Shown here: positions 2,842-22,326 of the stretch, piece by piece
How the letters are laid out: each line of letters opens with the position of its first letter
How positions within the stretch are numbered: position 1 is the stretch's first letter
From: Hyphomicrobiales bacterium
Lineage (GTDB): Bacteria; Pseudomonadota; Alphaproteobacteria; Rhizobiales; Rhizobiaceae
Direction: 5' to 3'
DNA: 64,000 nt
Assembly: GCA_900468805.1 (NCBI GenBank)
Contig: UEIF01000009.1
Coordinates: forward strand, 186,001 to 250,000
Position numbers and translations under genes: made by a program
The notes under the pieces: generated by a model
Databases searched by the model: none
What the model was told of the DNA's origin: nothing
Seen by the model: only the letters and a program-made list of their open reading frames with translations

Positions 2842-3765
2842 CTATTCCGGCAGCGCCGTCTGCCGGAAGAATGTCACGGTCGGTTCGTCCGGCGGTCCGA
2901 ACCAGGTGGTGAAGAACGTCCGGAAATCCTGCGCGGCATAGGCCTGGCTCAGCGCGCGATCGACAGCAAGACGGAAGTCCTCATCTCCGCGCGCCAGCTC
3001 AAGGCCGAGCGGCTCATAAGTGAAATGCCGCTGCAGGACAATGAAATTACCGGAATTGTCGCTGCGGGCGGCAGCATCCATAAGGATCGGCATGTCGCCG
3101 AAGAGGACTGCCGAACTGCCGTCCAGGACACGCTCGATCCCCTGCTGATAGTTGTTGACGGGCGTTGCGGTCGCTGCGAGCTGGAAAGTCTTGATCCTGT
3201 CGGAGAGCCAGCCCTCGCTCGTCGTACCGGCGATCGATGAGAATGTCTTGTGTTCCAGGATCGTTCGGGCCGGTGAACCACGCCAGACGGGGCGGTTTGA
3301 TGGTTCGCCATATTGCAGCACTTCCCGCAGCGCCAGCGGAGCGCTGGCGCTGAGGAGCGCGCCGGTGCCGCTCGGGAAAATCGGAATAGAGAACGACACT
3401 TGTTGTCGGCGCGTCAGCGTTACCGGCTCTGCCCCGCAGACAAGATCCGCAGCGCCGGCCTGTATGGCCTGCGCTTTCTCGTCACCGGAAAGAGGGACCC
3501 ATTCCACGTCGAGCTTCGGCAGATTCAGCTGCGCCCGCAGGCTATCGGCGATCTTGTTGCAGATTGCAACCGCGTAGCCGTTCGGCTTGCCCTGCTCGGC
3601 GAAGGAAAAGGGCCTCGCATCCGGATCGTAGCCAAGCTTCAGCGCACTGCTTGTCCTGACGCGGTCGAGTGTTTGAGCCACCGCGGGCGTGCTGAGAGCC
3701 GACGTTGCCGTCGCGGCGAGGACAGAGACGGCGATAACCGCCCAGTGATCATTTTTTCCTGACAT
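2842..3765 (-). CDS. periplasmic amino-acid-type solute-binding protein
   Basis: A 307-residue family 3 extracellular solute-binding protein (PF00497). A Sec signal peptide (hydrophobic AVIAVSVLAATATSALS, cleavage near STPAVAQ) precedes typical blocks: LKLGYDPDARPFSFAEQGKPNG, YAVAICNKIADSL, and GAADLVCGAEPVTLTRRQ. This family binds polar amino acids or polyamines for ABC importers, but no matching ABC permease or ATPase is nearby. It sits 17 bases after potE in the decarboxylase operon, so arginine, ornithine or a polyamine is a reasonable but unproven ligand. It may serve an importer encoded elsewhere or act as a sensor. Confidence 0.75.
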   Translation of the reverse strand: MSGKNDHWAVIAVSVLAATATSALSTPAVAQTLDRVRTSSALKLGYDPDARPFSFAEQGKPNGYAVAICNKIADSLRAQLNLPKLDVEWVPLSGDEKAQAIQAGAADLVCGAEPVTLTRRQQVSFSIPIFPSGTGALLSASAPLALREVLQYGEPSNRPVWRGSPARTILEHKTFSSIAGTTSEGWLSDRIKTFQLAATATPVNNYQQGIERVLDGSSAVLFGDMPILMDAAARSDNSGNFIVLQRHFTYEPLGLELARGDEDFRLAVDRALSQAYAAQDFRTFFTTWFGPPDEPTVTFFRQTALPE

Positions 3766-3782: not shown

Positions 3783-5141
3783 CTACTCAGCCGGAACCCG
3801 GTTCACGCCGCTGGCGAAACGCGGGGCGATCAGGCCGTAAATGATGAAACCTATCCCTGTGACGATCATGCCGCCGAGCACTGCATCCTTGCCGGAGGCG
3901 TAGATGGCGAAGACGCTGTAGGCCATGCCGATAAGAGCGATCGTGGCATTCAGCCGGTATTTCGCTGGGGGCACGCGGGCTGCCTTCATCATCACGAACA
4001 GGGCAGACAGCGCGATGATATAAGGCAGTACGTTCGTGACCACCGCGAGATTGACCAGTGCAGAGAACTGTTCGCTCAGCGTCGGCGATATGGTCATCAA
4101 GGCAAGGCAGGTCTGTACGATGCCCAGAATGATCATGCCCCTGACAGGCGCACCCATCTCGTTCACCCGCGAAAATAGGGATGGGAACATCCGCTCGTCG
4201 GCAGCGGTTTTCGCCGTCTGGGCGATTGTAAACTGCCAGCCGAGTAGCGAACCAAGGCAGGCCAGCACAGCGAGCGCCATGATGATCGAACCGATCGTCG
4301 GATTGAACATCGTGGCATAGGCGAGTGCGAATGGCCCAGTAGAGGTGGCGAGATCCGCGTTCGGCACGATGCCCTGAATAACCGTCGTCGACAGGATGTA
4401 GATGACGGCCGCTCCCAGCGTGCCGAACATGCAGGCGAGCGGCACGTCTCGCTTGGGGTTTTCAACCGCATCGGAGTTCTGTGCCGCGGACTCCATGCCG
4501 AGGAAAGCCCAGAGCGTGAGCGAGATGCTCGATCCCATGCCCTGCGCGAGCGATAGTCCTTTCGGGTTCCAGGCAGCTGCGAACGTGCTGGAGCTGAACC
4601 AGAGCCAGCCGATAATCGACAGCAGCCCGACGGGAAGGATGACGCCCCAGACGGTGATCGAGCCGATACGGCCGGTGATGCGCGGACCGCCGAAATTGGC
4701 GGCCGTGGTGAGCCACAGGAGCACGATCAGCGCCAGGCAGGTCATGATCGGTGTTGAGGTCAGCACCGGAAAGAAGCCGGCAAGATAACCGACGGCCGAG
4801 ATGCCGATCGCCACGTTGCCGACGGCGAGCGAGAGGAAATACAGGAAGAACACCATGAAGTAGCCGTCTTTCCCATAGGCATCTTCCGCGTAAGCGGACA
4901 TGCCACCGGGGCGTTGATTGAACAGCCCCGCCTGGGCAAAGCCATAGGCGATTGCCATCGAGCCGACAGCGGTGACCAGCCAGGACAATAGCGAGATCGC
5001 GCCGACCTGGGCCATATTGGCGGGCAGCATGATGATACCCGAACCCATCATGTTGACGGCGACGATGAAGGTGAGTTGCACAAGGTTCATCTTCTTCTTG
5101 GCCGTGGTCTCGGCCGCGAGATGCATCGTGTTATCGGTCAT
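3783..5141 (-). CDS. potE: putrescine/ornithine antiporter PotE
   Basis: A 452-residue APC superfamily transporter with about 12 membrane segments. From memory it matches E. coli PotE closely along its length: VNMMGSGIIMLPANMAQVG (substrate-binding TM1), SWLVTAVGSMAIAYGFA, ANFGGPRITGRIGSITVWGV, LTLWAFLGMESAAQNSDAVE (TM6), GSLLGWQFTIAQTAK and LVNLAVVTNVLPYIIAL. PotE exchanges external ornithine for internal putrescine, consuming a proton with the decarboxylase. The start at 5141 follows GGAGGATTTCATC. The gene lies 27 bases downstream of the ornithine decarboxylase gene, the same pairing as speF-potE in enterobacteria, which supports the assignment. Confidence 0.92.
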   Translation of the reverse strand: MTDNTMHLAAETTAKKKMNLVQLTFIVAVNMMGSGIIMLPANMAQVGAISLLSWLVTAVGSMAIAYGFAQAGLFNQRPGGMSAYAEDAYGKDGYFMVFFLYFLSLAVGNVAIGISAVGYLAGFFPVLTSTPIMTCLALIVLLWLTTAANFGGPRITGRIGSITVWGVILPVGLLSIIGWLWFSSSTFAAAWNPKGLSLAQGMGSSISLTLWAFLGMESAAQNSDAVENPKRDVPLACMFGTLGAAVIYILSTTVIQGIVPNADLATSTGPFALAYATMFNPTIGSIIMALAVLACLGSLLGWQFTIAQTAKTAADERMFPSLFSRVNEMGAPVRGMIILGIVQTCLALMTISPTLSEQFSALVNLAVVTNVLPYIIALSALFVMMKAARVPPAKYRLNATIALIGMAYSVFAIYASGKDAVLGGMIVTGIGFIIYGLIAPRFASGVNRVPAE

Positions 5142-5149
5142 GATGAAAT

Positions 5150-5169
5150 CCTCCCTACCCCCTACCCCC
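5150..5169 (-). promoter_or_regulatory. G-tract repeat over the potE leader, possible G-quadruplex
   Basis: Immediately after the first two bases of the ornithine decarboxylase stop codon, the minus strand reads GGGGGTAGGGGGTAGGGAGG. This is two TAGGGGG-type repeats with four runs of G (5, 5, 3 and 2) separated by loops of one or two bases. The last run is part of the potE Shine-Dalgarno sequence. Four closely spaced G-runs in mRNA can fold as a G-quadruplex, though the last run of only two Gs limits it to a two-tetrad structure in the simplest model. Any effect on potE translation is inference; it may only be an expanded ribosome binding site. Confidence 0.4.
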
Positions 5170-7532
5170 TACTCGCGCACGACATATGTGTGGAACTTGA
5201 TCCGCCCATCGATCCGCTCCTGGAACACGCCCTGGACCTCGTAATTGAAGCCGGGGAAGCGATTGAAGGATTCTTCGAAGGCGAGGAAATAGTCCCGCAT
5301 CGGCCGCGCCCGGTCGTCCCAGCGTTCTCCCGGCACGATCACGCCGATACCGGGCGGGTAGATCAGCGCCAGCGTCGCCGAGATGCGGCCGGCGGCTTCC
5401 GCCAGCGGCACGTAATCGACATTGTTGGCGACCAGCGCCTCATAGGCCTGCTTGGGTGCGATTGCCGGTTCCGGGAAGCTCTCGGAGCGGAAGCAGAGGC
5501 GCTGCAACTCCTTGACGCCCGCCTCGCGATAGAAGGAATGCATCTCCCGGCAGACCTGGCGAACGGAATAATCGGCATAACGCTCGCGATTGGCCGCGAA
5601 GACGGTCGGCAGCACCTCCTGCAGCGGCGCATCGCGGTCCCAGAGGTTCTTGAACTTGACGAGCTTGGCGACCAGCGTGTTCAGCTTGCTCTCGTCCTCG
5701 GCCGGGGTCAGTAGGAAGAGCAGGCTGTTCAGATCGCATTTCTCCGCCACGACCCGCTGCTCGCGCAGGTAGTTGGCAACGACCGTCGCCGGGATGCCGA
5801 ATTCGCGATACTCGCCGGTGTTCCGGTCGATGCCGGGTGTCAGTATCGCAAGCTTGTTTGGATCGACCATGGTGTAGCCGGGCGCATAACCCGAATAGCC
5901 ATGCCACTTCGCCTGCGGATCGAACCGCCAGCATTGCTGCTCACGCTTCAGCACATCGGTCGGAATATCTTCCCATCTGGTATCGGCGAGATCGCCGGTG
6001 TGCTTGGAGCCCGAAACCGACACCCTGTCTGGCACGAAGGGATCGAAGAACCATTGCTCTTCGGGGCTTGCCGCTTTGGTCTCGTAATGATCGACGAACC
6101 CGCGCAGCTTCTTGCGCACCTCGATCCCGAGTTCGATGCAGCGGTCCCACAGCATCTCTCCTGCCTTGCCTTCATGCACCTTGGCATTGACATCAAGCGA
6201 GGCAAACAGGGGATAAAAGGGTGATGTCGAAACATGCATCAGCAGCGATTCATTGAAGCGCTTGTGTTCGACGAACCGGCGCTGTCCGCTGATATGTTCG
6301 TCCCGTTTGTGGATCTGAGATGCCTGCGAGAAGCCGGCGCCCTGCTTATGGACCGATTGGGTGGAAAACAGACCCGGCATGTCCGCCGACAAGTCCTTCA
6401 GCCGCATCGGGCTATGGCCCTCGAAGAGCGGATGGAAGGCGTTGTAGCCGATCCAGGCTTCGTCCCAGAGCACGTAGTCGCAGAGATGGCCGATCTTCTC
6501 CATCACCTGCCGGACATTGTAGATCGTGCCGTCATAGGTCGCGAGCTGAATGCAGGCCAGACGGAAAGGCCGCTCGGCCTTGGCACGGCTCTTGTCGGTG
6601 ACCAGCGGGTGTTCCTCTATCTTTTGCCGCAGCCAGGCTTCGTCCCAAGCCGCCCAATCGACGGCCCCGATCATGCCAAAGGAATTGCGGGCGGTCGGCA
6701 GATAGATCGGGATGGCGCCTGCCTGCACGAGGGCTCCCTGATGCAGGGATTTGTGATTGTTGCGATCGAAGAGCACAAGGTCGCCGTTGCGCAGCACCGC
6801 ATTGGCAACCACCTTGTTGGAAGTGCTCGTTCCGTTGAGGATGAAATAGGTCCTATCAGCGCCGAAAATGCGCGCCGCCTGTTTCTGGGCTTCGACTGCG
6901 GGACCTTCATGGATCAGGAGATCGCCGAGATCGACATCGGCATTGCAGAGGTCGTTGCGGAAAATGCTCTCGCCGAAATATTTGAAGAAGAGCTGTCCGG
7001 CCGGCGATTTCCGATAGAATTGGCCGCCCTGATGCCCCGGGCAATCGAAGGCGATGTTTGCCTCGCCGTCATAGGCCATCATGCCGCCGAAGAAAGGTGG
7101 CAGCAGCGATTTGCCGTAGTTGACCGCGCTGGAAACGATCTGCTTGGCATAGAAGGTCGGCGTCTGCTGGCCGAGATAGACGAAACCATCCACCTCACCG
7201 GCCATCTCGACGACATCCATATCGGCGATCGTCAGCGTATCGGCCATCGCCCAGATCGGCGTTCGGAAGCCTATGTCTCTCACAGCGCGAAGGAAGCTCC
7301 GTGCCGCCGGCAACTGCCCGCCTTCGACCGAGCCGATATAGGCGCCGACGTCAGCATCTTCCGACACATCAGCGGAATAGTCGTCGCGTAGCTCCACCTC
7401 AAAACCCTGGGCGGTGATCTGCGCCACCAACTCCTGCGCCTGAGAATTGTCGCGGTCGATAACGGCCACGATCTTCAGCATCTTATGGAACGGTATGGCG
7501 ACCGTCGGCGACTTCACATCACGCGGGATCAT
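5169..7532 (-). CDS. speF: ornithine decarboxylase, inducible SpeC/SpeF type
   Basis: A 787-residue fold-type I PLP decarboxylase (Orn/Lys/Arg family, PF03709-PF01276-PF03711) converting ornithine to putrescine and CO2 with consumption of a cytoplasmic proton. The PLP-lysine motif is QSVHKQGAGFSQASQIHKRD (Lys near residue 396). The variant QSVHKQ...SQIHK followed by STSPFYPLFASLDVNAKVHEG is the ornithine-specific form seen in SpeC/SpeF, rather than the STHKLL form of arginine and lysine enzymes. The N-terminal wing domain (IVAVIDRDNSQAQELV) is present. Start 7532 is chosen because GGAGG lies 7 bases upstream and its ATG overlaps the previous stop as ATGA; a longer frame to 7556 lacks this. 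It is translationally coupled to the upstream decarboxylase. Confidence 0.92.
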   Translation of the reverse strand: MIPRDVKSPTVAIPFHKMLKIVAVIDRDNSQAQELVAQITAQGFEVELRDDYSADVSEDADVGAYIGSVEGGQLPAARSFLRAVRDIGFRTPIWAMADTLTIADMDVVEMAGEVDGFVYLGQQTPTFYAKQIVSSAVNYGKSLLPPFFGGMMAYDGEANIAFDCPGHQGGQFYRKSPAGQLFFKYFGESIFRNDLCNADVDLGDLLIHEGPAVEAQKQAARIFGADRTYFILNGTSTSNKVVANAVLRNGDLVLFDRNNHKSLHQGALVQAGAIPIYLPTARNSFGMIGAVDWAAWDEAWLRQKIEEHPLVTDKSRAKAERPFRLACIQLATYDGTIYNVRQVMEKIGHLCDYVLWDEAWIGYNAFHPLFEGHSPMRLKDLSADMPGLFSTQSVHKQGAGFSQASQIHKRDEHISGQRRFVEHKRFNESLLMHVSTSPFYPLFASLDVNAKVHEGKAGEMLWDRCIELGIEVRKKLRGFVDHYETKAASPEEQWFFDPFVPDRVSVSGSKHTGDLADTRWEDIPTDVLKREQQCWRFDPQAKWHGYSGYAPGYTMVDPNKLAILTPGIDRNTGEYREFGIPATVVANYLREQRVVAEKCDLNSLLFLLTPAEDESKLNTLVAKLVKFKNLWDRDAPLQEVLPTVFAANRERYADYSVRQVCREMHSFYREAGVKELQRLCFRSESFPEPAIAPKQAYEALVANNVDYVPLAEAAGRISATLALIYPPGIGVIVPGERWDDRARPMRDYFLAFEESFNRFPGFNYEVQGVFQERIDGRIKFHTYVVRE

Positions 7533-9790
7533 TCTTGTGCCTCCGCTACAATGCAATCAACCAGATAGCGGCGTCCGTTATCACCGGGTGTGAAGCGCAG
7601 GCCGTGGATATCAGTCTCGAAACCGGGGAACTTGCGGTCGAAATCACGGGCGTAAAGAAGGTAATCCTGAATGGACTTCGTCGACAGCGTGATCCGCTCG
7701 CCCGGCATGATCAGCGGAATTCCGGGCGGATAGGGAACGATCATCACGGCAAGGATGCGATCCATGAGATCGTCGATCTCGACGCTCTCGATCCGGCCTT
7801 TGACCAGCCGGTCGTAGGCATCGGCAGGACGCATCGCCATTTCCGGCAGCACCGTATACATTTCGCGTTGCGCCTTCGGCACGTCGTCCTTGCGATAGAT
7901 CGCGTGGATCTGTTCACAGAGATCTTTCAGCCCCATGCCGGCATAGGCTTCCGGATGCGCTGCTGCGAGCGCCGGCAGCGCCCGGGTCAGCGGCGTGTTG
8001 GCGTCATAGAGATCCTTGAAATTGAGAAGTTCGGTGACAAGCGTGCTCCACTTGCCGCGGGTAATGCCCATCGAGAAAAGCACGAGGAAGGAATAGAGGC
8101 CGGTCTTTTCGATCTCGATGCGCCTGGAGGACAGGAACTTCGTGATGACGGCGGCCGGTATCCCGTGCTCATCCATGACACCGCTTGCAGATAGGCCCGG
8201 CGAGAGGATGGTGACTTTGATCGGGTCGACCATGACGTGGTTTTCGGCAAGTCCGGTAAACCCATGCCAGGCATCGTCCGGTTTCAAGACCCAGTCGGCA
8301 TGGGTGTCGCTCGGCGTCTGCTCGGCAACCGTCGGCTCCCAGACGTCGAACCACCAGTTGCCTTCCGTCTGTTTCCTGACCGCATTCATCGCCCGGCGGA
8401 AGCTGATCGCCTCGTCGATCGTTTCCTGCACCAACGCGCGGCCAGCCGGCTGTTCCATCATGGCGGCAGCGACATCGCAGGAGGCGATGATGCCATATTG
8501 CGGCGAAGTCGAAGTGTGCATCATGAAGGCTTCGTTGAAGCGGGTTACGTCGAGACGTTTGTTCTCGGCATGCTGGATATGGATCATCGATGCCTGAGAA
8601 AGGGCTGCCAGCAGCTTGTGCGTCGAGTGCGTCGCAAAGGTGATGGCGTTCTGCGATCGCGCAGGCTGGTTCGACGAGATCCCGTGGAAGCCATCATAGA
8701 ATTCGTGAAAATTGGCATAGGCATACCAAGCCTCGTCGAAATGCAGCACTTCGACTGCATCGCCAAGTGACGCCTTGATGGCATCGACATTGTAGCAGAG
8801 ACCGTCATAGGTCGAATTGGTGATGACCATCAGCCGGACCTTGCCGCTCGTTTGCCCGGCAAAGGGGCTGGCGGCAATCTTGCGGGCAATCGATTCAGGC
8901 GTGAACTGATCCTTGGAGATCGGGCCGATAATGCCTAGCCCGTTGCGCGACGGCGTCAGATAGATCGGCGTCGCACCCGTCATGATGAGCGAGTGCAGGA
9001 TCGACTTGTGGCAGTTGCGGTCGCAGAGCACGAGATCGCCCCGCCCGACCATGCCGTGCCAGACGATCTTGTTGGCTGTCGACGTGCCGCCGACGACGAA
9101 GAGGGTTTCGTCTGTGCCGAAGATGCGCGCCGCATTGCGCTCGCCCTCCGCGATCGGCCCGACATGATCGAGAAGGGAGCCGACGCTGCCGACCGATACG
9201 GAGATATCAGAGCGAAGTGTGTTTTCGCCAAAGAACGTATAGAAGAGCTGGCCGACCGGGCTTTTGCGGAAAGCAACACCGCCGCCGTGACCGGGCGTAT
9301 GCCAGGAATAGGCGCCCTCCAGCGTGTAATCCATCAGCGCCTTGAACATCGGCGGCGGCAGCCGGTCGAGATAGTTGCGGGCGGCCTGCGCGATGGCGCG
9401 GGCCATGAATTCCGCGGAATCCTCAAACAGCCGGAAGAAGGCATTGGCGTGGCGTAGCACTGCCGCCGGAACATCTTCGGCGGTCGTATCATCACCGAAG
9501 AGAAAGATCGGCAGCCGGTCGTTTCTTTGTCGCTTTGCAGCCAGCACCTCTCCGAGCACTTGCCAGCGTGTGGCCTTGTCCTCGGTACCGTCGACGGAGA
9601 CCAGCCAGCAGGATTCGGTATTGAAGACATGGACCAGACGACGGGCGTCTTCGTAGGAAACGCCGGAGACGATCCGGAAGCCTTCCTTCTCGATGGCTGC
9701 TGCCAGATCGCGCATGCCGCGTCCGGCGGCGCTTTTTCCGTCAAAATCTTCGTCAATAACAGCGATAGGAAATGCCGTCTGGAATTCCAT
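7529..9790 (-). CDS. adiA: arginine decarboxylase, AdiA-like (lysine possible)
   Basis: A 753-residue PLP decarboxylase, about the length of E. coli AdiA. Domains run from the N-terminal response-regulator-like wing domain through a PLP domain with WHTPGHGGGVAFRKSP, GGTSTANK, HFDEAWYAYANFH and the Schiff-base motif HSTHKLLAALSQASMIH (Lys near residue 392) to a C-terminal domain. LFSMGITRGKWSTLVTELLNF and YDANTPLTRALP resemble AdiA more than CadA, so arginine to agmatine is favoured; lysine specificity cannot be excluded. Start 9790 follows GGAGGAACTC. It is first in the operon with speF, potE and a binding protein, and a perfect FNR/FixK box lies 98 bases upstream. Confidence 0.82.
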   Translation of the reverse strand: MEFQTAFPIAVIDEDFDGKSAAGRGMRDLAAAIEKEGFRIVSGVSYEDARRLVHVFNTESCWLVSVDGTEDKATRWQVLGEVLAAKRQRNDRLPIFLFGDDTTAEDVPAAVLRHANAFFRLFEDSAEFMARAIAQAARNYLDRLPPPMFKALMDYTLEGAYSWHTPGHGGGVAFRKSPVGQLFYTFFGENTLRSDISVSVGSVGSLLDHVGPIAEGERNAARIFGTDETLFVVGGTSTANKIVWHGMVGRGDLVLCDRNCHKSILHSLIMTGATPIYLTPSRNGLGIIGPISKDQFTPESIARKIAASPFAGQTSGKVRLMVITNSTYDGLCYNVDAIKASLGDAVEVLHFDEAWYAYANFHEFYDGFHGISSNQPARSQNAITFATHSTHKLLAALSQASMIHIQHAENKRLDVTRFNEAFMMHTSTSPQYGIIASCDVAAAMMEQPAGRALVQETIDEAISFRRAMNAVRKQTEGNWWFDVWEPTVAEQTPSDTHADWVLKPDDAWHGFTGLAENHVMVDPIKVTILSPGLSASGVMDEHGIPAAVITKFLSSRRIEIEKTGLYSFLVLFSMGITRGKWSTLVTELLNFKDLYDANTPLTRALPALAAAHPEAYAGMGLKDLCEQIHAIYRKDDVPKAQREMYTVLPEMAMRPADAYDRLVKGRIESVEIDDLMDRILAVMIVPYPPGIPLIMPGERITLSTKSIQDYLLYARDFDRKFPGFETDIHGLRFTPGDNGRRYLVDCIVAEAQE

Positions 9791-9859
9791 GAGTTCCTCC
9801 AGAAACCTGATGTCAAAGGCTCCGGCCGCCATGCAGCCGTGTGCATCTCAGGTAGAAGG

Positions 9860-9865
9860 ATCGTA
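9860..9865 (-). promoter_or_regulatory. predicted -10 element of the decarboxylase operon promoter
   Basis: The minus strand reads TACGAT here, a 4/6 match to TATAAT. If the FNR/FixK palindrome at 9888-9901 is centred at -41.5, as in class II FNR/FixK promoters, the start of transcription falls near 9853 and this hexamer occupies exactly -12 to -7. The leader would then be about 63 nucleotides. The geometry is read from the sequence; promoter activity is inferred. Confidence 0.55.
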
Positions 9866-9887
9866 CATGAGGGGTAGTGCGGCGTCG

Positions 9888-9901
9888 TTGATTGCAATCA
9901 A
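9888..9901 (-). promoter_or_regulatory. perfect FNR/FixK box (anaerobox) upstream of adiA-speF-potE
   Basis: The 14-base palindrome TTGATTGCAATCAA matches the FNR/FixK consensus TTGAT-N4-ATCAA at every defined position. It is intergenic, 98 bases before the adiA-like start codon. In rhizobia such boxes are bound by FixK or FnrN under oxygen limitation. A suitable -10 hexamer is found at the spacing expected for a class II activator site. Confidence 0.8.
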
Positions 9902-9954: not shown

Positions 9955-10881
9955 TTACTCCGCCCATTCTGTGTCGGTGGTGAAGGCAATCGTCAGCCAG
10001 CGATTGGCACTCTCGTCGCCGATCGCATTCCCAATCTCGTCGCGCAACGCATCCCACTCCTCCAAAGTCTTTGGGGGAAGTCCTTCGGGTACGATGAAGT
10101 AGAGCTCAATCTGCTTGGCGCGGCCGACCTGGGCAACATAGGCGCGGTGAGAGAGGAAGCCGAGGCGGTGGACAGTTTCCGATGCAATGCGATCGACATG
10201 GTTTTGCAAATCGACAGGGGCAATCAACAGGACTTCGCTCAGCGCCTTCCATACGGTGGTGATCGGAAGCGGGATCATGACGAGGCAGACGAGTGCTAGG
10301 ACCGCGGGGTCCATATAGCTTGCGACCCATGCAACCGGCGTCGCCTGCACGGCCATGCCGATGAGAAAAGCGATGAGCAATGCAAGTGCGATTCCGCCAG
10401 ACATGATCCAGGCCTTGATGTCGAGCGATATGAAATCGGATTTGATGCGGCGGTTCAGCCTGATGCCCATGATAGCCATGACCATACAGACGAGCACCGT
10501 CGCGGCGGAATAAGCCACTGCCATGCCGAAACGGAGTTCGTGGCCGCCGTTCAAAATGCTGATGATCGCGCTGATCAGCGCATAGACGCCGACCGTCATC
10601 AGCAGGCAGCCATTGAGCATGAGTACGATCGGCTCCAGATGCCAGAAGCCCATCGTGAACCGGTTTCGAATTCTGCCGGATTGCGCATCGCTCTGCGTCG
10701 ATTTCAGGATCAGGCTCGAAACCCACAGCGCAAGTCCGGTCATTGCCGCATCGGCCAGCGAATAAACACCATCGAAGGCAATGGAAAATGAGCCGGAAAG
10801 AATACCGAAAACCACGCCGAGGGTCGCGACCACCACGGTCGCTGCAATCGAGATCCTGAGAAACCCCTGCTCGCTTAACAT
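9955..10881 (-). CDS. CDF-like cation efflux protein with atypical metal site
   Basis: A 308-residue membrane protein of the cation diffusion facilitator superfamily (PF01545): six hydrophobic segments, then a soluble C-terminal domain (YVAQVGRAKQIELYFIVPEG). The usual TM2 motif is replaced by FDGVYSLADA, with Tyr where Zn-type proteins carry His. The TM5 region reads LDIKAWIMSGG instead of the usual H/D-x3-D pair. Substrate is therefore uncertain. Start 10881 is preferred because GGTGGGGTGACG precedes it; the frame extends to 10962 without a convincing ribosome binding site. It diverges from the AdiC-like transporter gene. Its link to arginine metabolism is only positional. Confidence 0.7.
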   Translation of the reverse strand: MLSEQGFLRISIAATVVVATLGVVFGILSGSFSIAFDGVYSLADAAMTGLALWVSSLILKSTQSDAQSGRIRNRFTMGFWHLEPIVLMLNGCLLMTVGVYALISAIISILNGGHELRFGMAVAYSAATVLVCMVMAIMGIRLNRRIKSDFISLDIKAWIMSGGIALALLIAFLIGMAVQATPVAWVASYMDPAVLALVCLVMIPLPITTVWKALSEVLLIAPVDLQNHVDRIASETVHRLGFLSHRAYVAQVGRAKQIELYFIVPEGLPPKTLEEWDALRDEIGNAIGDESANRWLTIAFTTDTEWAE

Positions 10882-10961
10882 CGTCACCCCACCTTCGGCA
10901 CCCGTCATTCTAACGGCTTTACGACAATCGGGAAGGCTAGACGAGGCCCGGCGACTACGCA

Positions 10962-10975
10962 TTGATCCGGATTGC
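10962..10975 (+). promoter_or_regulatory. degenerate FNR/FixK-like half-box upstream of the APC transporter
   Basis: TTGATCCGGATTGC has a perfect left half-site (TTGAT) and only a partial right half (ATTGC against ATCAA). It lies 89 bases before the start codon at 11064, and GACAAT at 10995-11000 could be a -10 element about 3 bases off the ideal class II position. The match is weak and would not stand alone; it is noted because neighbouring operons carry better boxes. Confidence 0.25.
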
Positions 10976-11063
10976 GGCTGTCCGTTTTTGCAACGACAAT
11001 CACGGCTCGAAGGCAGTCCGAAGAGCCATCGGCTCCCGGAAGCCGGCTCACGGGAGGGACCTT

Positions 11064-12419
11064 ATGACAACCTCGTCGAATGGCAAAAGTCTCGGACTTG
11101 CCGCCTGCACCGCCATCGTGGTCGGAAACATGGTGGGATCCGGCTTCTATCTTTCACCAGCCGCAGTGGCCCCCTATGGCAACCTCGCAATCATCGTCTG
11201 GATCATCATGGGCGCCGGCGCAATCTGTCTCGGCCTCACCTTCGCGCGTCTGGCGCGCCTCGTGCCGGTCACCGGCGGGCCCTATGCCTATACGAGGCTG
11301 GCCTATGGAGATTTCGCCGGTTTTCTGATCGCCTGGGGCTACTGGATTTCCATCTGGACGTCGCTGCCCGTTATCGCCATTGCCTTTACTGGTGTGATGG
11401 TCGACCTCTTTCCGGCCCTCAGCAACCGCTTTACCGCGACAGTTCTGACGCTCGGTGTGATCTGGGCGATCGTGCTGGTCAATCTTCGTGGCGTTCACGC
11501 GGCCGGTCTTTTCGCGCAGGTCACGACGTATGCCAAGCTGCTTCCCTTCGGCGCCGTCGCCATTATCGGCCTTCTCTACATCGACACTTCGCATTTTTCC
11601 GAGTTCAACCCGAGTGGCCAGCCGCTGCTGCAGTCGATCGCAACGCTGGCACCGCTGACTATGTTCGCCTATCTGGGCTTGGAATCAGCGACCGTGCCCG
11701 CCGGCGACGTCGAGAACGCCGAGCGGACCATTCCCCGCTCCACCGTCCTTGGGATCTCAATCGCCGCCACCCTCTATGTACTCGGCACCATTGTCGTCAT
11801 GGGGCTCATGCCGCGTGAGCAACTGGTTCACTCAATCGCGCCCTTCTCGCAAGCCGCCGGAATCATGTGGGGCCGCCCCGGAGAGCTGGCGATCTCGATC
11901 GCCGTACTGCTCTCCTCGATCGGTGCCCTGAACGGCTGGACCCTGTTGATGGGCCAGGTGCCGATGGCCGCTGCGCGCGACGGATTGTTTCCGCCGCTTT
12001 TCGCGCGGCTCTCCTCGCGCGGCGTACCTGCATGGGGGATGGTCGTTTCGGCATTGTTTGCAACGCTGCTGGTACTCGTCCAGGCTCTCGGCTCTGAAGG
12101 CTTTGCGGCGGTTTACCGGCTGATGGTCGGGCTGAGCACGATGGCGGCCGTTGTTCCCTATGCCTTCTGCGCGCTTGCCGGAAGCCTGGTTGCCGGCGCG
12201 ACCCAGGGACGGATGCCACGGGTGAGTGCGATCGAGCTTATCGCCTTCGTCTTTGCGATCTTCACCCTGTATGGCTCCGGCGCCGAGCCGGTGCTTTATG
12301 GGCTCGTTTTGCTGATGCTCGGAATTCCCGTCTATGTCTGGCAAAGGCGAAACGCGGTCGAAGTCACAAACAAACAGACGGCAGCGGGTGCAGCAACGCA
12401 CCCGGCCGTCTCAGGATAA
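11064..12419 (+). CDS. APC family amino acid antiporter, AdiC/ArcD-like
   Basis: A 451-residue transporter with 12 predicted membrane segments. Conserved APC blocks are VVGNMVGSGFYLSPAAVA (TM1), TGGPYAYTRLAYG, LTMFAYLGLESATVPAGDVE (TM6) and LNGWTLLMGQVPMAAARDGL (TM8), followed by FPPLFARLSSRGVPAWGM. The TM6 and TM8 blocks resemble the arginine/agmatine antiporter AdiC of enterobacteria. With an AdiA-like enzyme on one side and arcABC on the other, it probably exchanges arginine for agmatine or ornithine; which product it exports cannot be read. Start 11064 follows GGGAGGGACCTT; an upstream in-frame ATG at 10962 lies in the promoter region. It is convergent with arcC, with 15 bases between the stops. 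Confidence 0.8.
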   Translation: MTTSSNGKSLGLAACTAIVVGNMVGSGFYLSPAAVAPYGNLAIIVWIIMGAGAICLGLTFARLARLVPVTGGPYAYTRLAYGDFAGFLIAWGYWISIWTSLPVIAIAFTGVMVDLFPALSNRFTATVLTLGVIWAIVLVNLRGVHAAGLFAQVTTYAKLLPFGAVAIIGLLYIDTSHFSEFNPSGQPLLQSIATLAPLTMFAYLGLESATVPAGDVENAERTIPRSTVLGISIAATLYVLGTIVVMGLMPREQLVHSIAPFSQAAGIMWGRPGELAISIAVLLSSIGALNGWTLLMGQVPMAAARDGLFPPLFARLSSRGVPAWGMVVSALFATLLVLVQALGSEGFAAVYRLMVGLSTMAAVVPYAFCALAGSLVAGATQGRMPRVSAIELIAFVFAIFTLYGSGAEPVLYGLVLLMLGIPVYVWQRRNAVEVTNKQTAAGAATHPAVSG

Positions 12420-12434: not shown

Positions 12435-13370
12435 TCAGTGCCAGCTCAGCCCATCAAAACTTTCGTTGATGATCGTACCGCGCTCGCCGCGTACCATTCC
12501 GGCAATATCGGCAAGGGAGCCGATGGCGGCCGTCTTGCCGTTTGCCCGTGCGAAGTGGCAGGCGGCATCCACCTTCGGCCCCATCGAGCCGGCCGGAAAT
12601 GAGAACTGCCTGAAATCATCGGGACGAGCGCGGTGGATCGCCTTCTGGGACGGCTTGCCCCAGTCGATGCAGACGGCCTCGGCGTCCGTTGCCATGATCA
12701 AAAGATCTGCATAGAGCTCGCGCGCCAGAAGCTCCGAGCAAAGGTCCTTGTCGATGACGGCTTCGACGCCGATCAGTTTTCGGTCGGCACCCTTTTCGTA
12801 CATGGTCGGAATACCTCCTCCACCTGCGCAGATGACGATCGTGTGCTCTTCCAAGAGCCAGCGGACTGGACGAATTTCAAAGATGCGCTTCGGTGCCGGC
12901 GAAGCTACGACGCGCCGCCATTTTTCGCCATCCTGCTTGAAGACCCAGCCCTTTTCAGTGCGGATCCGGTCGGCCTCGGCCTTTTCGTAGACCGGACCGA
13001 CGAACTTGGTCGGGTTTTGGAAACCAGGATCATCGGCATCGACTTCCACCATGGTTAGAAGCGTCGCCAGCGGCTGCTCGAAAGGCAGGAGATTGCCGAG
13101 TTCCTGCTCCAACATATAGCCGATCATGCCTTCGGTTTCGGCGCCGAGAACATCGAGCGGATAGGCCTCCTCCGGCTTGTAAGCGGCTCCCTGGAGCGCG
13201 AGCAGCCCAACCTGCGGCCCGTTGCCGTGCGTGATGACGATCTCATGTTCGGCCGCCAATGGCGCAATGGCCTGAGCAGCGACGCGCGCGTTCCGCCTTT
13301 GGGTATGGGCAGTCATGGGCTCCCCGCGCCGGAGAAGCGCATTGCCGCCAAGCGCAATGACCACACGCAT
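12435..13370 (-). CDS. arcC: carbamate kinase
   Basis: A 311-residue amino-acid-kinase family enzyme (PF00696) catalysing carbamoyl phosphate + ADP to ATP + NH3 + CO2, the ATP-forming step of the arginine deiminase pathway. It begins [19 protein letters not shown], the family's N-terminal phosphate-binding block, and contains [36 protein letters not shown] and [17 protein letters not shown]. The start at 13370 has GGGAG just upstream, inside the end of arcB, leaving one base between the arcB stop and the arcC start. A longer open frame to 13469 is discounted because it runs into arcB. It is the last gene of arcA-arcB-arcC. Confidence 0.93.
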
Positions 13371-13371
13371 G

Positions 13372-14376
13372 TCAATCTCCCAAAGTAGCGACGAGCAGGG
13401 CCTTGATCGTGTGCAGGCGATTTTCCGCTTGCTCGAAAGCGACATTGGCCTCGGATTCGAAGACGTCATCGGTGACTTCGAGGCCGTTTTCCATGCCGTA
13501 ATCTTCGGCGATCTGTTTGCCGAGCACGGTTTCAGTGTCGTGGAACGCCGGCAGGCAATGCATGAATTTGGTCTGCGGATTGCCGGTCGCTTTCATCAGC
13601 TCCTGATTGACCTGATAGGGCGTGAGCAGCTTGATCCGTTCGCGCCAGACATCTTTTGGCTCGCCCATCGAAACCCAGACATCCGTGTGGATGAAATCAA
13701 CATCCTTGACCGCTTCCTTCGGATCTTCGGTGACCAGCAGCCGCGCGCCCGAGGCCTGCTGCAGATCCTTGGCGATGTTCATATATTCATCCGACGGCCA
13801 CAGTGATCTCGGACCGCAGATGCGCACATCCATGCCGAGCAGGCAGCCGACGATCAGCAGCGAGTGCCCCATATTCGAGCGCGTGTCGCCGACATAGGCA
13901 TATTTGATCTGGGTGATCGGCTTATCGCTATGCTCACGCATGGTCATGACGTCGGCAATCATCTGCGTCGGATGATATTCGTCCGTCAGGCCGTTATAAA
14001 CGGGCACTCCGGCGTAACGTGCCAGCGTCTCCACGCCTTTTTGCGCGGAGCCGCGATACTCGATTGCGTCATACATGCGGCCGAGCACCCGCGCCGTATC
14101 CTTGAACGATTCCTTGTGTCCGATCTGCGAGCCGGACGGATCGAGATAGGTCACGTTGGCGCCCTGGTCCGAGCAGGCAACTTCGAAGGCGCATCTCGTT
14201 CTCGTCGAGGTTTTCTCGAAGATCAGGCAGATTTCCTTGCCTTTCAGGTGCTCCTGTTCGGTGCGGGCGTATTTGGCCCGTTTCAGGTCGCGTGCGAGAT
14301 CGAGAAGGTAGCGGAATTCCCGTGGCGTATAATCCTGCACGGTCAGAAGCGAGCGATTGCGCAGATTGAAGCTCAT
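13372..14376 (-). CDS. arcB: ornithine carbamoyltransferase, catabolic
   Basis: A 334-residue aspartate/ornithine carbamoyltransferase. The carbamoyl-phosphate-binding motif [11 protein letters not shown], the HPTQ motif ([14 protein letters not shown]) and the ornithine-binding HCLPAFHD motif are all present. In the deiminase pathway it works phosphorolytically: citrulline + Pi to ornithine + carbamoyl phosphate. Position between arcA and arcC, 36 bases after arcA and one base before arcC, supports the catabolic rather than the biosynthetic (argF) role. Ornithine formed here could feed the SpeF-type decarboxylase encoded 6 kb away. Confidence 0.93.
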
Positions 14377-14412: not shown

Positions 14413-15642
14413 TCAGTAAGCCGGGTCGCGCCAGATGGGGCATGTCATGCAATGCCCGCCGCCACGGCCTCGGCCAAGTTCGGAACCGTGAATGGTGATC
14501 ACCTCGACGCCTGCCTTGCGCAGCAGCGTATTGGTATAGGTGTTGCGGTCGTAAGCGACGACGACGCCTGGTTCGAGTGCGACGACATTGTTGCCGTCGT
14601 CCCATTGCTCGCGTTCGGCTTGATACAAATTGCCGCCGGTCTCGACGGTGCGCAGCGGCGGCAGGTCGAGCGCCTCGCTGACGACATCGAGCATCGGCTG
14701 ATTTTCGGGATGGATCTCGAATGTGCCGTCGTCATCCACCGGATACATGCTGTAGCAGCGGATCTGGTCGACGACTTCGGCAAACAGCGTGACAAGGTCA
14801 CGATCGCAAAAGCTGAAAACCGTATCGAGATGCATGGCTGCACGGCTCTTCGGCATCAGGCAGCCGATCACCCGCTTGGCGGCCTTGTTCTTAAACAGGG
14901 CCTGTGCTACCTGGCCAACGGCCTGATAGGTGGTGCGCTCGCCCATGCCGATCAGAACGGTGCCGTTGCCGATCGGCATGACGTCGCCGCCCTCCATCGA
15001 GGCATTGGCGAACTGAGTATCGGAATCGCCCCACCAGATCTTGAAGTCACCACCGTGAAAGATCGGATGAAACTTGTAGATCGCGCGCTGGATCAATGTC
15101 TCTGCGCGTCTTGCCGGCCAGAACATCGGATTGCAGGTCACGCCGCCATAAATCCAGCAGGATGGATCGCGCTGGAATAGGGTGTTGGGGATCGGGGGGA
15201 TGACGAAATCTGTTTCCGGCAGCGCGCTCAGCATCAGCGACTTAGCCTTGACATCGGGCAGGTCGGAGATCGCGATGCCGCCGATCATAAAGGCGGCAAG
15301 CTGGTTTGCCGGCATTTCGTCAAGCCACGGACGCATGGCCTCGGCGATCTGCGAGCCGAGCACGTTCGGCGTGATACGCCGATCCAATATGAAATCGCGC
15401 GCCTGCTTGTTGGCGAGCGTCTGGCCGAGCAGCTCGTGGAGCTCAAGAACCTCGACCCCTCTTTCCTGCATCTTGAGGACAAAATCATAGTGATCCTTCT
15501 GGGCCTCATGCACCCACAGGACGTCGTCGAAAAGCAGATCATGGCAGTTTGCAGGCGTCAGGCGTTGATGAGCCAGGGATGGTCGGCAGACCATGACGGT
15601 TCTCAGCTTTCCCACTTCCGAATGAACACCGAAACCACGCAT
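14413..15642 (-). CDS. arcA: arginine deiminase
   Basis: A 409-residue amidinotransferase-fold hydrolase converting arginine to citrulline + NH3. Features include the N-terminal [39 protein letters not shown] (His of the catalytic triad region), [12 protein letters not shown] and the C-terminal [13 protein letters not shown]. The nucleophilic Cys falls at residue 398, the canonical position in the family. The start at 15642 follows GGAAGGAGGAGCGC; the in-frame extension to 15696 lacks a ribosome binding site. It is first in arcA-arcB-arcC. A near-consensus FNR/FixK box lies about 98 bases upstream, consistent with low-oxygen control. Confidence 0.94.
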
Positions 15643-15739
15643 GCGCTCCTCCTTCCAGCCATCGGGGTAGCGGCCGCGCCGCCGCTCTAAACACATTCAG
15701 CCTGGTTGGCAGCCTATTTGGGCTGACCCGCTAATGTCA

Positions 15740-15753
15740 TTGATTGCAGACAA
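15740..15753 (-). promoter_or_regulatory. near-consensus FNR/FixK box upstream of arcA
   Basis: TTGATTGCAGACAA matches 12 of 14 bases of the perfect box upstream of the adiA-like gene, including the same TGCA core. One half-site is perfect (TTGAT) and the other is GACAA instead of ATCAA. Its distance to the arcA start codon (98 bases) is the same as in the decarboxylase operon. No convincing -10 hexamer is seen at the -41.5 spacing. Confidence 0.5.
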
Positions 15754-16626: not shown

Positions 16627-16640
16627 TTGAGCCGGATCAA
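16627..16640. promoter_or_regulatory. TTGA-N6-TCAA FixK-type site between divergent genes
   Basis: TTGAGCCGGATCAA carries both TTGA and TCAA half-sites at FNR/FixK spacing, with one deviation (G for T) from the extended TTGAT-N4-ATCAA consensus. It lies between the secreted protein gene (minus) and the PAS histidine kinase gene (plus). Only in the minus direction is there a plausible -10 (TACTCT) at class II spacing. Confidence 0.5.
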
Positions 16641-16828
16641 TGGAGATGACGCCGAGCCGAAACGGTGGCGTACCGGACCTTCGGCCAGGCAATCTTGCGG
16701 GGAGAGACCAATAGAGTCTACGCGATACTACACCGATCATCCGTCCAAAGGTGGTAAACTTGCGTCATTGTCGTGAAAGGAGAGGCTGTCTAGGACTGAA
16801 TTACTTCTCAAAGGGCGGAGGAGACACC

Positions 16829-18061
16829 ATGTCCATCAAGGTGGAGGCATCGCAAGTTGCTGAACACGGTCCCGCTGTCTCAAACCTCGCGGGACGAACT
16901 TCGTTCACGGAATCGCGAATGGCGCGCGCTTTGTGCGAGGGAGAAAATGGGCCACGGTTGGAGTGGATCCGGCGACTTTATGAACGGATGCCGGATGCAG
17001 TGTTCTTCATCACTGACCGCCACGGAATTTCGGCCTGCAACAGGGCTGCGGTGACGCTGTTCGGCTACGAAGAAAGCGAGTTGCTCGGCCGCCAGATCGA
17101 CTTCGTCTGGTCTTCGACGCCAGATGTTCAACTCAGCGGCCGCTGGGCAAGCCAGGGAGCAGTACGCGCCGGTCTGGCAATCACGAAGAACGGCGTTCAG
17201 TTCCCAACTGTCCTGACCATCATCAGGGAACAGGGCGAAGAAGGGGCCTTCGCTGTGGCGATCGTCGAGGACTTCCGGGCCGAGCGCGAGACATTGCAGC
17301 AGGTTCAGGAGCTTCAGAGGGAGCTGGCCCGTCTCGCAAGGGTGGTTACGCTTGGGGAAATGACATCGACGCTGGCTCATGAACTTTCCCAGCCGCTATC
17401 TTCGATCGCTGCCTACTCACAAGGTTGCGGGAGGCTTATGATGAAAGATCGCCGCCGTCGCGGCGAGGAGCTTCGCGAAGCTCTATCAGAAATTACGCAG
17501 CAAGCCTTATGGGCAGGAACGGTCGTCCAGAATATCAGAGATTTCGCGAGACGCGGTGCCTGCGAGAAAAAATTGGAAGCAATGCACGCGTTAATTCATG
17601 AGGCGGCGACGCTCGCGCTCGCCGGGTCACCGCGGAATAACGTCCATGTCGAGTATCAGCTTGAGGCCGAGCGCGACATCGTCCTCGCCGACCGTGTCCA
17701 GATCGTGCAGGTGCTGACGAACCTTCTTCGCAATGCCCTGGACGCGACTGACCGTATCGAGCAACCCTATATCGTCATCCGCAGCAGAGGCGACGACTCC
17801 TCTCATCTTGTCGTCGAAGTGTCTGACAACGGTTGCGGGATTGCCGCCGAGATGGAAGAGGCGCTGTTTCGTCCCTTCGTGACCAGCAAGCCGCGAGGCC
17901 TCGGTATGGGCCTGGCATTGTCCAGGCGCATTATCGAAGCGCATGGCGGCTGTATTATCGCGCGCAACAGAATGGGGAGCGGTTCAACCCTCTCGTTTTC
18001 GCTTCCGCTAGTGGAGACAAAAGCCCATGGCGAACGACCTTACGATCCATCTCGTCGATGA
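16829..18061 (+). CDS. PAS-domain sensor histidine kinase, FixL-like without the heme histidine
   Basis: A 410-residue soluble kinase. A PAS domain covers about residues 45-160 (DAVFFITDRHGISACN, ELLGRQIDFVW). Next are a short coiled coil, an H-box (LGEMTSTLAHELSQPLSSIA, phospho-His near residue 184) and an HATPase domain with N-box LTNLLRNALDAT, VSDNGCGI and GLGMGLALSRRIIEAHGG. The layout matches FixL. However, the PAS segment that holds the heme-ligating His in FixL (RHDSYI in Bradyrhizobium) has no His, so oxygen sensing by PAS heme is unlikely. Start 16829 follows GGAGGAGACACC. It overlaps the response-regulator gene by 35 bases, indicating a cognate pair. The signal is unknown. Confidence 0.85.
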   Translation: MSIKVEASQVAEHGPAVSNLAGRTSFTESRMARALCEGENGPRLEWIRRLYERMPDAVFFITDRHGISACNRAAVTLFGYEESELLGRQIDFVWSSTPDVQLSGRWASQGAVRAGLAITKNGVQFPTVLTIIREQGEEGAFAVAIVEDFRAERETLQQVQELQRELARLARVVTLGEMTSTLAHELSQPLSSIAAYSQGCGRLMMKDRRRRGEELREALSEITQQALWAGTVVQNIRDFARRGACEKKLEAMHALIHEAATLALAGSPRNNVHVEYQLEAERDIVLADRVQIVQVLTNLLRNALDATDRIEQPYIVIRSRGDDSSHLVVEVSDNGCGIAAEMEEALFRPFVTSKPRGLGMGLALSRRIIEAHGGCIIARNRMGSGSTLSFSLPLVETKAHGERPYDPSRR

Positions 18062-18701
18062 CGAGGAGTCGCTCAGACGATCCTTGACGTTCTTGCTGGT
18101 GTCGGCAGGTTTTGCGGTCCGCGCGCACAGCTGCGCAAAGGCCTTTCTGGAACGCCTGCCCCTTTCGGGGAGAAGTTGCCTTGTGACGGACCTTTGCATG
18201 CCACATGTCGACGGCATCGAATTGCTTCACCGCCTGCGCCGTTTCGGCATGGACGTTCCGGCGATCGTCATCACCGGCCAGGGCGATATTGCTGCGGCCG
18301 TTCAGGCGATGAAAGCGGGGGCATTCGATTTCCTGGAAAAGCCTGTTCGGGAAGAGGCGCTGATCGCAGCCATCAACGGAGCAATGGCACAAGGGCGGCA
18401 CGGCAGCGCGGTGGCCGATTGCGAAAGCGTTGCTGCGCGACTTCGCCAGCTCACGGACCGCGAACACCAGGTCCTCTCCGGCGTGCTCGATGGCTTACAG
18501 AACAAGATGATTGCTTATCACCTGGGTATCAGTTCGCGCACGGTGGAGGTCCACCGCGCCAATGTGATGGCGAAGATGGGCGCGCGCAATCTGGCAGAAC
18601 TCATGCGTCTGGCCATGACCATCGAGGCGGCAGCGCAATCGATTGAAACCACGAGGAAAGCGCAGGCCGGGGACCGGTCAACGTATATGCGTCAATTCTA
18701 A
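18027..18701 (+). CDS. FixJ-like response regulator
   Basis: A 224-residue two-domain regulator. The receiver domain (residues 1-120) has the acidic pair (DDEE at 11-14), phospho-acceptor Asp55 in VTDLCMP, Thr in ITGQGD and Lys in FLEKPV. The C-terminal LuxR/GerE HTH reads LTDREHQVLSGVLDGLQNK, then ISSRTVEVHRANVMAKMGA. This is the FixJ/TtrR subfamily. It overlaps the kinase gene by 35 bases, so the two are co-translated. Targets cannot be read from sequence; fixK-type genes are the classical targets, and a FixK-like gene lies 3 kb downstream. Confidence 0.88.
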   Translation: MANDLTIHLVDDEESLRRSLTFLLVSAGFAVRAHSCAKAFLERLPLSGRSCLVTDLCMPHVDGIELLHRLRRFGMDVPAIVITGQGDIAAAVQAMKAGAFDFLEKPVREEALIAAINGAMAQGRHGSAVADCESVAARLRQLTDREHQVLSGVLDGLQNKMIAYHLGISSRTVEVHRANVMAKMGARNLAELMRLAMTIEAAAQSIETTRKAQAGDRSTYMRQF

Positions 18702-18787
18702 AGCAAGTCTTGCAACCTCAGGCTCGTGCGATAATATGCGTTAGACGAACCTTAAATAATTGCGTCATCTTTGTCGTAGGGGCGATC

Positions 18788-21522: not shown

Positions 21523-21660
21523 CGATACCTCCCACGATATTTTCGTATCGCTCTCATCAAGGGGAACAGCTTTATACACCTGTCGGTGGTCGCGGGCTTC
21601 CGTAACAATACGTAAGGAGTATCTCGAATACCCGGGCGGGCAGCGATTGCTTATGCTGCG

Positions 21661-22326
21661 ATGCGGATGGGGACGGCACACATGCTTCAAAACCAGACGA
21701 TCGTAAAGCACACGACAGTTACAGGCCACCGCTATGGTAGTGCTGCCAGAACGGCGAAGGATCAATCGATCCGTCTCAAGGCCGACGAGACGATCTATAG
21801 CGAAGGCGAACACGCTCTTACGATCTACCAGGTCGAATCGGGCGCGGTGCGGATATACCGCCTCACGGCAAGCGGGCAGCGATATATTCTGTCTTTTTGC
21901 GGCAAGGGTGAATGGTTCGGACTCGAAACAGGCACTGTGCGAACCGATTTTGCAGAGACCGTCTGCGAAACCTGCATCAAGCCCTTTCGTGCCAATCAAA
22001 ACGCAGTCATTCCCGTAGACCTTCTCCACATTGCCCTGACGAACCTCGCAAAGGCACAGCACAAACAGCTCGTCATCACCGAGCAAAGCGCATTGAAGCG
22101 CGTCGCCGCCTTTGTCTACGAAATGGCCGATCGTCATCCGGCAGATTGCGAATTCGATATGATGATGTCGCGCAGCGATATCGCCGATTATCTCGGACTG
22201 ACGGTCGAAACCGTCGCCCGCTGCTTCACGAAACTTCGCAAAAAACGCATCCTGTGCCTGAACGGCAAACTGCAACGCATTGTTCGCCTTGTTGACCGCG
22301 ATGCACTCATCGCAATGGCGATCTAG
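21661..22326 (+). CDS. Crp/Fnr-family transcriptional regulator, FixK-like
   Basis: A regulator of up to 221 residues: cyclic-nucleotide-binding-fold domain (GEHALTIYQVESGAVRIYRL, GEWFGLETG) and C-terminal HTH (MSRSDIADYLGLTVETVARC). The GLE after the beta-roll and the DIADYLGLT-VET helix resemble rhizobial FixK. It lacks the N-terminal Cys cluster of FNR/FnrN, so it should not sense oxygen by an Fe-S cluster. In the recognition helix the FNR/FixK E-x-x-S-R becomes E-T-V-A-R, with Ala replacing the Ser that contacts the TTGAT half-site. Start codons at 21661, 21667 and 21682 are all possible; GGGGAC before 21682 favours the shortest (214 residues). It may act on the boxes found in this window. 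Confidence 0.85.
   Translation: MRMGTAHMLQNQTIVKHTTVTGHRYGSAARTAKDQSIRLKADETIYSEGEHALTIYQVESGAVRIYRLTASGQRYILSFCGKGEWFGLETGTVRTDFAETVCETCIKPFRANQNAVIPVDLLHIALTNLAKAQHKQLVITEQSALKRVAAFVYEMADRHPADCEFDMMMSRSDIADYLGLTVETVARCFTKLRKKRILCLNGKLQRIVRLVDRDALIAMAI

Follow-up and report, generated by a model that had tools for sequence, protein, structure and literature searches.

The arginine deiminase genes of Pseudomonas aeruginosa, arcDABC, are controlled by ANR, an FNR-type activator that senses oxygen itself and acts at a class II box before these genes; the operon contains no decarboxylases. The enterobacterial acid systems built on AdiA and on SpeF-PotE use different regulators. In Rhizobium etli, arcABC reportedly lies beside fixLJ, and the FixL of this species is said to be structurally unlike other FixL proteins. 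The locus described here, in a 64,000-nucleotide stretch of DNA (the window; Table 1), shares with P. aeruginosa an FNR-type class II box, here a predicted one, in company with arginine deiminase genes, but it includes decarboxylases, which lie outside the P. aeruginosa operon. It encodes the same enzyme and antiporter families as the enterobacterial systems and differs from them in being tied to arcABC and FixK-type boxes. The preliminary description of the locus set acid induction in enterobacteria against oxygen-linked control here; this contrast is false, as Adc of E. coli and Salmonella is maximal below pH 5 and anaerobically (PMC8983666).

Sinorhizobium meliloti arcA1BC, SMa0680, and SMa0682 are described as FixJ-activated (PMC13327599, after Bobik 2006). 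SMa0680 and SMa0682 are up in a tolC mutant, in the same table as fixN2, fixQ2, nos genes, fixI1, and fixS1 (PMC2912261); in a malic enzyme (tme) mutant, these putative putrescine genes show no significant change (PMC4960864). Mutants of the polyhydroxybutyrate cycle show changes in three regions, among them 37 kb of pSymA in which the arc operon lies together with SMa0662, an uncharacterised Fnr/Crp-like gene; a FixK-like motif came out of the strongest expression cluster in the same study (PMC5596199). Arginine and polyamine metabolism of S. meliloti has been linked to acid tolerance and to nodule nitrogen fixation (PMC7268258). An S. meliloti locus in our set (L225) has the same genes as the window at 60–88% identity, with a perfect box and a 22-base spacer; from names and context, we infer that these are the genes with the above SMa numbers. 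It differs in gene order, in having no FixL- or FixJ-like match within 18 kb, and in its linked FixK-like gene, which is only 45% identical and lies on the other side.

In Rhizobium leguminosarum, the pRlvA-encoded OTC, lysine decarboxylase, and ornithine decarboxylase (RLV_1136, RLV_1140, and RLV_1141) are more abundant in pea than in lentil bacteroids (PMC7950203, Table 4). Plasmid pRlvA of strain UPM791, whose record carries no annotation, has the box, the spacer, arcA, and the FixL-, FixJ-, and FixK-like genes, and judging by replicon, order, and names the three proteins are presumably products of this cluster; the spacing of the RLV tags fits the order arcB, arcC, permease, diffusion facilitator, ldc, speF. 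The fnrN, fixNOQP, and fixGHIS promoters of strain 3841 share the motif TTGAT-N4-ATCAA, and mapping of their starts puts the activating anaeroboxes at −32 to −34 (PMC7888657, Table 1). For the window, the end of the box is predicted at −35, which is close, the two values possibly referring to different points of the box. The genes that these R. leguminosarum promoters serve are respiratory or regulatory and differ from those of amino acid decarboxylation. Compared with the consensus of Tsoy et al., TTGANCNNGATCAANG, the box of the window differs at two of its inner positions, and the main text of that study does not contain the word decarboxylase (PMC4999443). In the open literature, to which the search was confined, no description was found of this box upstream of the decarboxylase operon in Rhizobium. 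FixJ-dependent related genes are already known in alfalfa symbionts, according to the text cited above, and the present locus is likely a well-conserved further case of a known kind of switch. The unexpected part is the FixL-FixJ-FixK set beside the operon, whose FixL-like protein is apparently haem-less.

The decarboxylase operon and its predicted promoter

Four genes in a row on the minus strand, ldc-speF-potE-SBP, make up the operon. The first decarboxylase scores below the curated NCBIfam cut-offs of both LdcC (720 of 968 bits) and AdiA (688 of 1167 bits), and its nearest solved chain is 6q6i, which we take to be P. aeruginosa LdcA. On these matches it is described as LdcA/AdiA-type, with lysine or arginine as candidate substrates. 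The preliminary description had named AdiA-like and SpeF-like decarboxylases with PotE; the SpeF-like enzyme and the antiporter are borne out, and the first enzyme takes the broader assignment. Upstream of the diffusion facilitator, the cluster continues with the permease, arcCBA, the FixL-like kinase, the FixJ-like regulator, a TPR protein, and the FixK-like protein. In the loci of relatives (about 12–18 kb each), arcABC is present in 20 of 20, the FixJ- and FixK-like genes in 19, and the FixL-like gene in 18. The order ldc-speF-potE-SBP-arcA also occurs in five more distant loci (L021, L024, L028, L030, and L036).

Table 1. Positions of the genes and sites of the cluster in the window.
Feature	Position	Strand	Basis or remark
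Family 3 solute-binding protein (SBP)	2842..3765	-	conserved last operon gene
Putrescine-ornithine antiporter PotE	3783..5141	-	583.7 bits, above the TIGR04299 cut-off of 560
Inducible-type ornithine decarboxylase, SpeF-like	5169..7556	-	profile matches
LdcA/AdiA-type basic amino acid decarboxylase	7529..9790	-	frame from 9832, likely ATG 9790; profile and structure matches
Predicted transcription start	9853..9853	-	arithmetic, assuming the box centred at −41.5
Predicted −10 hexamer TACGAT, 22 bases past the box	9860..9865	-	first T, A, and final T each in 40/41 promoters
Palindromic FixK/FNR-type box TTGATTGCAATCAA, predicted site of class II activation	9888..9901	-	window sequence and conservation
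Cation diffusion facilitator, upstream of the box, same direction	9955..10962	-	
Basic amino acid/polyamine permease	10962..12419	+	
arcC, carbamate kinase	12435..13469	-	
arcB, ornithine carbamoyltransferase	13372..14376	-	
arcA, arginine deiminase	14413..15696	-	
Box variant TTGTCTGCAATCAA before arcA	15740..15753	-	8/10
Box variant TTGAGCCGGATCAA before the fixL/fixJ-like genes	16627..16640	+	
FixL-like histidine kinase lacking FixL's haem-ligand histidine	16751..18061	+	
FixJ-like response regulator	18027..18701	+	250.4 bits, FixJ cut-off 255
TPR protein between the fixJ- and fixK-like genes	18710..20551	+	in most relatives
Inverted repeat CTTCCGTA-N4-TACGTAAG, candidate FixJ operator	21597..21617	+	alignment of loci
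Linked FixK-like CRP/FNR-family regulator	21661..22326	+	recognition helix ETVAR

SpeF and PotE act on ornithine, which the deiminase pathway supplies, and we infer from this that the cluster serves one route from arginine to exported putrescine. The deiminase pathway would yield ornithine from arginine, with ATP; proton-consuming decarboxylation would then convert ornithine to putrescine, to be exchanged through PotE. Such an output would be useful in the oxygen-poor, acidic nodule. A second type of arginine deiminase, 54–58% identical, occurs across the genus (for example G061, G143, and G134:C79), in some genomes beside the cluster type. On plasmid pB of S. meliloti LMB1 (L230:10175-14805), the decarboxylase cluster adjoins the nap nitrate reductase operon, another low-oxygen system.

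The box matches TTGAT-N4-ATCAA at 10 of 10 positions and lies inside a 122-base gap between the cation-efflux gene and the decarboxylase frame; since the upstream neighbour has the same direction, the box would be aimed at the leftward decarboxylase operon. When its centre at 9894.5 is set to −41.5, +1 falls at 9853 and TACGAT at −12 to −7. The perfect match and this geometry, both put forward previously, agree with the window sequence (TACGAT at 9865–9860 on the minus strand). The open frame of the first decarboxylase opens at 9832, and the ATG at 9790–9788 is preceded by GGAGG. In R. lentis, the orthologue as annotated starts 42 bases into the frame match, and the annotated S. meliloti orthologue starts at residue 15 of the window frame; as the annotated relatives begin there, the gene probably starts at 9790–9788 rather than at 9832.

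A perfect match turned up in 5 of 100 dinucleotide shuffles of the window. Exact matches are expected at 0.06–0.07 per 64 kb (shuffles or first-order Markov model), and the Markov expectation within the 122-base gap is 1.3e-4. A lone perfect match somewhere in 64 kb is thus unremarkable; one well placed before an operon is suggestive. The genome of origin (7.62 Mb) has eight exact matches, with 8.3 expected under the Markov model and none in a backwards control; with no enrichment, exact-match counting was dropped as evidence. One of the other seven exact boxes precedes a frame beginning MNLYTAPDP, presumably FixG. Two more lie 32 bases apart on C57, before an fnrN whose product has N-terminal cysteines, and resemble the dual-box arrangement known before R. 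leguminosarum fnrN (PMC7888657).

Conservation of the box in two genera

When 148 genomes of the genus were searched with the first decarboxylase, 57 matched, 41 of them with orthologues of at least 90% identity (one split and one truncated). In the other 16, which are genus members without the cluster (for example G016, G094, and G112), the match is another decarboxylase, 37–41% identical and mostly 799 aa in frame. The 41 orthologous upstream regions compared are all distinct, and each contains the box, perfect in 34 and one letter off (9/10) in seven; the forms are TTGATTGCAATCAA in 28, TTGATTGCGATCAA in six, and TTGACTGCAATCAA in seven. The TA...T hexamer stands at a spacing of 22 bases in 40 promoters and of 21 bases in one. 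Twelve of the 14 box columns are invariant, compared with none of 30 upstream and three of 42 downstream (GAC of a CGACG flank); averaged over pairs of promoters, identity is 0.96 in the box, 0.71 in the spacer, and 0.47 upstream. Conservation is thus concentrated in the box, the CGACG flank, and the −10 hexamer, and the centre bases TGC[AG] are fixed within Rhizobium promoters. A named-genome set, whose species overlap with those of the 148-genome set, consisted of 80 loci kept out of 591 confirmed candidates; its 17 Rhizobium loci all have the box (14 perfect and three at 9/10). At its 63 distant loci, from Mesorhizobium, Tabrizicola, Rhodospirillum, other MAGs, and the Pseudomonas group, no box was found within 450 bases, the best score being 8/10.

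Outside Rhizobium, plasmid records contain Sinorhizobium orthologues at 80–90% identity. All six Sinorhizobium loci, from S. meliloti strains (L225, L228, L230, and L231), S. medicae (L229), and Sinorhizobium sp. K101 (L226), have perfect arms, and the TA-hexamer at 22 bases, around five different centres. Constant arms with a variable centre are the pattern that should be expected of a FixK/FNR site. An even sample of 297 family genomes gave eight matches at E ≤ 1e-200, two of them within the genus; in G226 and G365 (decarboxylase at 80% and 77% identity) FnrN is present and the box absent. Of four homologues at 48–49% identity, one (L197) has a 9/10 match 241 bases upstream.

The box is judged to be a functional site on account of this conservation, not of match counts. 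The class II spacing, a property of sequence geometry, is 22 bases in 40 of 41 Rhizobium and 6 of 6 Sinorhizobium promoters. Arms, spacing, and TA-hexamer kept in two genera, together with the variable N4 of Sinorhizobium, give good support to the prediction of a class II promoter under FixK/FNR-type control.

Further, weaker boxes stand elsewhere in the cluster, in which only the decarboxylase box is a full anaerobox. In all 21 loci, the window included, the arcA upstream region reads TTG-N3-GC[AG]ATCAA-TGAC (8–9 of 10), in the form TTGTCTGC[AG]ATCAA in 18 and as variants in the other three. The fixL/fixJ-like genes are preceded by a 9/10 box, mostly TTGAGCCGGATCAA, in 19 of the 20 loci having them, and by an 8/10 box in one; in L182, the box was located with the FixJ-like gene as anchor. 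A permease upstream box is present in 11 of 21 loci (eight at 9/10 and three at 8/10). A candidate before the window's own permease gene reached at best 7/10 and was rejected. Such weaker boxes would suit a regulator that tolerates changes at the outer positions. In G106 (L182, about 6617-6807), the box stands directly before the FixJ-like gene and a FixL-like match was not found at this locus; the kinase may be missing from this species.

The linked FixL-, FixJ-, and FixK-like genes and the choice of regulator

The FixK-like protein encoded about 12 kb from the box contains PF00027 and PF13545, lacks N-terminal cysteines, and has FixK2 (4i2o) as its best solved relative. The recognition helix of FNR-type proteins has the motif ExxSR; the helix of the linked protein is ETVAR in 20 of 20 aligned sequences, which keeps E and R and has A for the S that is kept in FNR and in the FixK and FnrN of the same genome. 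The FixL-like kinase has a HisKA and HATPase core like that of FixL, the whole protein scoring 259 bits against a FixL model cut-off of 850. Its PAS domain matches FixL weakly and has a proline opposite the histidine of B. japonicum FixL that is presumably the haem ligand. None of the 19 aligned FixL-like sequences has a conserved histidine at this position, and three have one nearby. With the haem-ligand histidine absent, the linked kinase may sense something other than oxygen.

Before the FixK-like gene, the inverted repeat CTTCCGTA-N4-TACGTAAG has exact arms in 16 of 20 loci and is one letter off in the other four. It emerged from alignment of the loci; the FixJ motif patterns tried gave no match before the gene in any of the 20. 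The repeat has a partial likeness to the R. palustris FixJ motif GTACGTAG (PMC13327599) and is a plausible operator for the FixJ-like regulator.

Across the 148 genomes, the FixK-like gene (at 44% identity or more) is found in all 41 that have the operon versus 14 of the 107 without, a count that leaves out two genomes with only a stop-containing fragment at higher identity. In 40 of the 41, the gene is on the operon contig, 4.9–12.6 kb off; in the draft genome G093, the two are on different contigs. FnrN (E ≤ 1e-70) is found in 38 of the 41 and 50 of the 107, and symbiotic FixK (E ≤ 1e-35) in 24 of the 41 and 69 of the 107, absences carrying some risk as the first pass in each genome scored a limited number of candidates. 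Linkage by itself could hold the FixK-like gene with the operon. Such profiles cannot single out one protein, because, besides the linked FixK-like protein, FnrN or symbiotic FixK is encoded in all of the 41; the window's own genome has all three, with FnrN on C57 and FixK on C13. Two Sinorhizobium loci (L226 and L230) have the box and no linked FixK-like gene was found within 18 kb. As the box is kept there, the linked protein would not be needed in these two, which weakens it as a strict requirement.

The palindrome at 9888–9901 is probably a FixK-type class II site, where activation would come mainly from the linked FixK-like protein, with FnrN or symbiotic FixK adding to it. The genes would likely be switched on where oxygen is low, for instance in root nodules. 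The FixL-like/FixJ-like pair would fire on the inverted repeat at 21597–21617, and the FixK-like protein so made would be the main activator in Rhizobium; a FixK-family activator bound at the box would recruit RNA polymerase to a class II promoter with the start predicted at 9853, and FnrN or symbiotic FixK, where present, would add activation at low oxygen. FixK or FnrN control had been proposed in the preliminary description. The FixK/FNR type is well supported, given the box and its spacing in two genera; the list of regulators needs extending, for it omitted the linked FixK-like gene, a good candidate, and of the 41 genomes three lack FnrN and 17 lack symbiotic FixK. Oxygen-linked control gains indirect support from the FixJ-dependent S. 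meliloti counterparts (PMC13327599) and from the probable R. leguminosarum bacteroid proteins (PMC7950203); the signal of the linked FixL-like sensor, which lacks the haem ligand, may be a different one.

FnrN, an oxygen-sensing FNR homologue, could instead be the main direct activator, the linked FixK-like protein being minor or serving other boxes. The box does have the perfect anaerobox form found before the genome's own fnrN, and most box genomes have FnrN. However, G079, G093, and G123 keep the box and show no FnrN even at a loose threshold (matches of 27–34% identity only), which weakens FnrN as sole regulator, and the two family genomes G226 and G365 have FnrN without the box; FnrN is thus an unlikely main activator. 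The three FnrN-less genomes have a symbiotic-type FixK. A further candidate for main activator is symbiotic FixK under a haem-type FixL cascade, in line with the report on the FixJ pathway of S. meliloti (PMC13327599). The adjacency of FixK and a FixL-type kinase on C13 of the window's genome and the boxes kept in L226 and L230 accord with this, but 17 of the 41 box genomes lack such a FixK at E ≤ 1e-35 and we consider the reading rather improbable. It is hardly credible that an unrelated dimeric regulator, such as an arginine- or pH-sensing repressor, binds the palindrome and that its likeness to an anaerobox is coincidental. A centre fixed as TGC[AG] in Rhizobium, needless for a plain FixK box, would suit such a protein; the five centre forms between constant arms in Sinorhizobium, a spacing that fits class II activation in both genera, and the reported FixJ dependence of orthologues would not.

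Arginine and polyamine metabolism would be tied to FixK-type regulation through a site kept across two genera and, if the haem-less FixL-like kinase is active, a FixLJ-FixK relay would answer to a different signal. A more tentative, rather doubtful possibility is that the cluster forms an island with its own regulation, its FixL-FixJ-FixK relay having separated from the nitrogen-fixation cascade. A FixL that lost its haem would then read a signal other than oxygen (redox state, pH, or a basic amino acid, for example), and the relay would command arginine deimination and polyamine decarboxylation through FixK boxes of its own, one of them a feedback box before fixL, with FnrN reading the perfect decarboxylase box as a second, true oxygen input.

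Nine genomes (G098, G109, G089, G101, G129, G110, G010, G057, and G021) retain a FixK-like gene (71–87% identity) but have neither the decarboxylase operon nor a full-length arcA of the cluster type; in these the FixK-like gene may be a relic or act on other targets. The eight loci examined from these (L210–L217) all have FixJ-like, TPR, and FixK-like matches, and seven have a FixL-like one. An arcA fragment remains in L215, and permease and cax fragments in L216, as after loss of the metabolic half.

Next to the FixK-like gene, the window has a 572-aa minus-strand frame (about 20557–22275) with no Pfam hit. At the loci of relatives, a second match to the TPR protein, at 38–44%, occurs farther along on the other strand, and a divergent TPR paralogue seems to lie beside the FixK-like gene. 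In L180, a more distant FixK-like gene stands at the operon's other end. In G128 and G114 (L222 and L223, about 6.4–9.5 kb), the operon ends next to a more distant FixK-like gene (41–44%), which is itself followed by a kinase match, an arrangement that reads as a regulator swapped in place.
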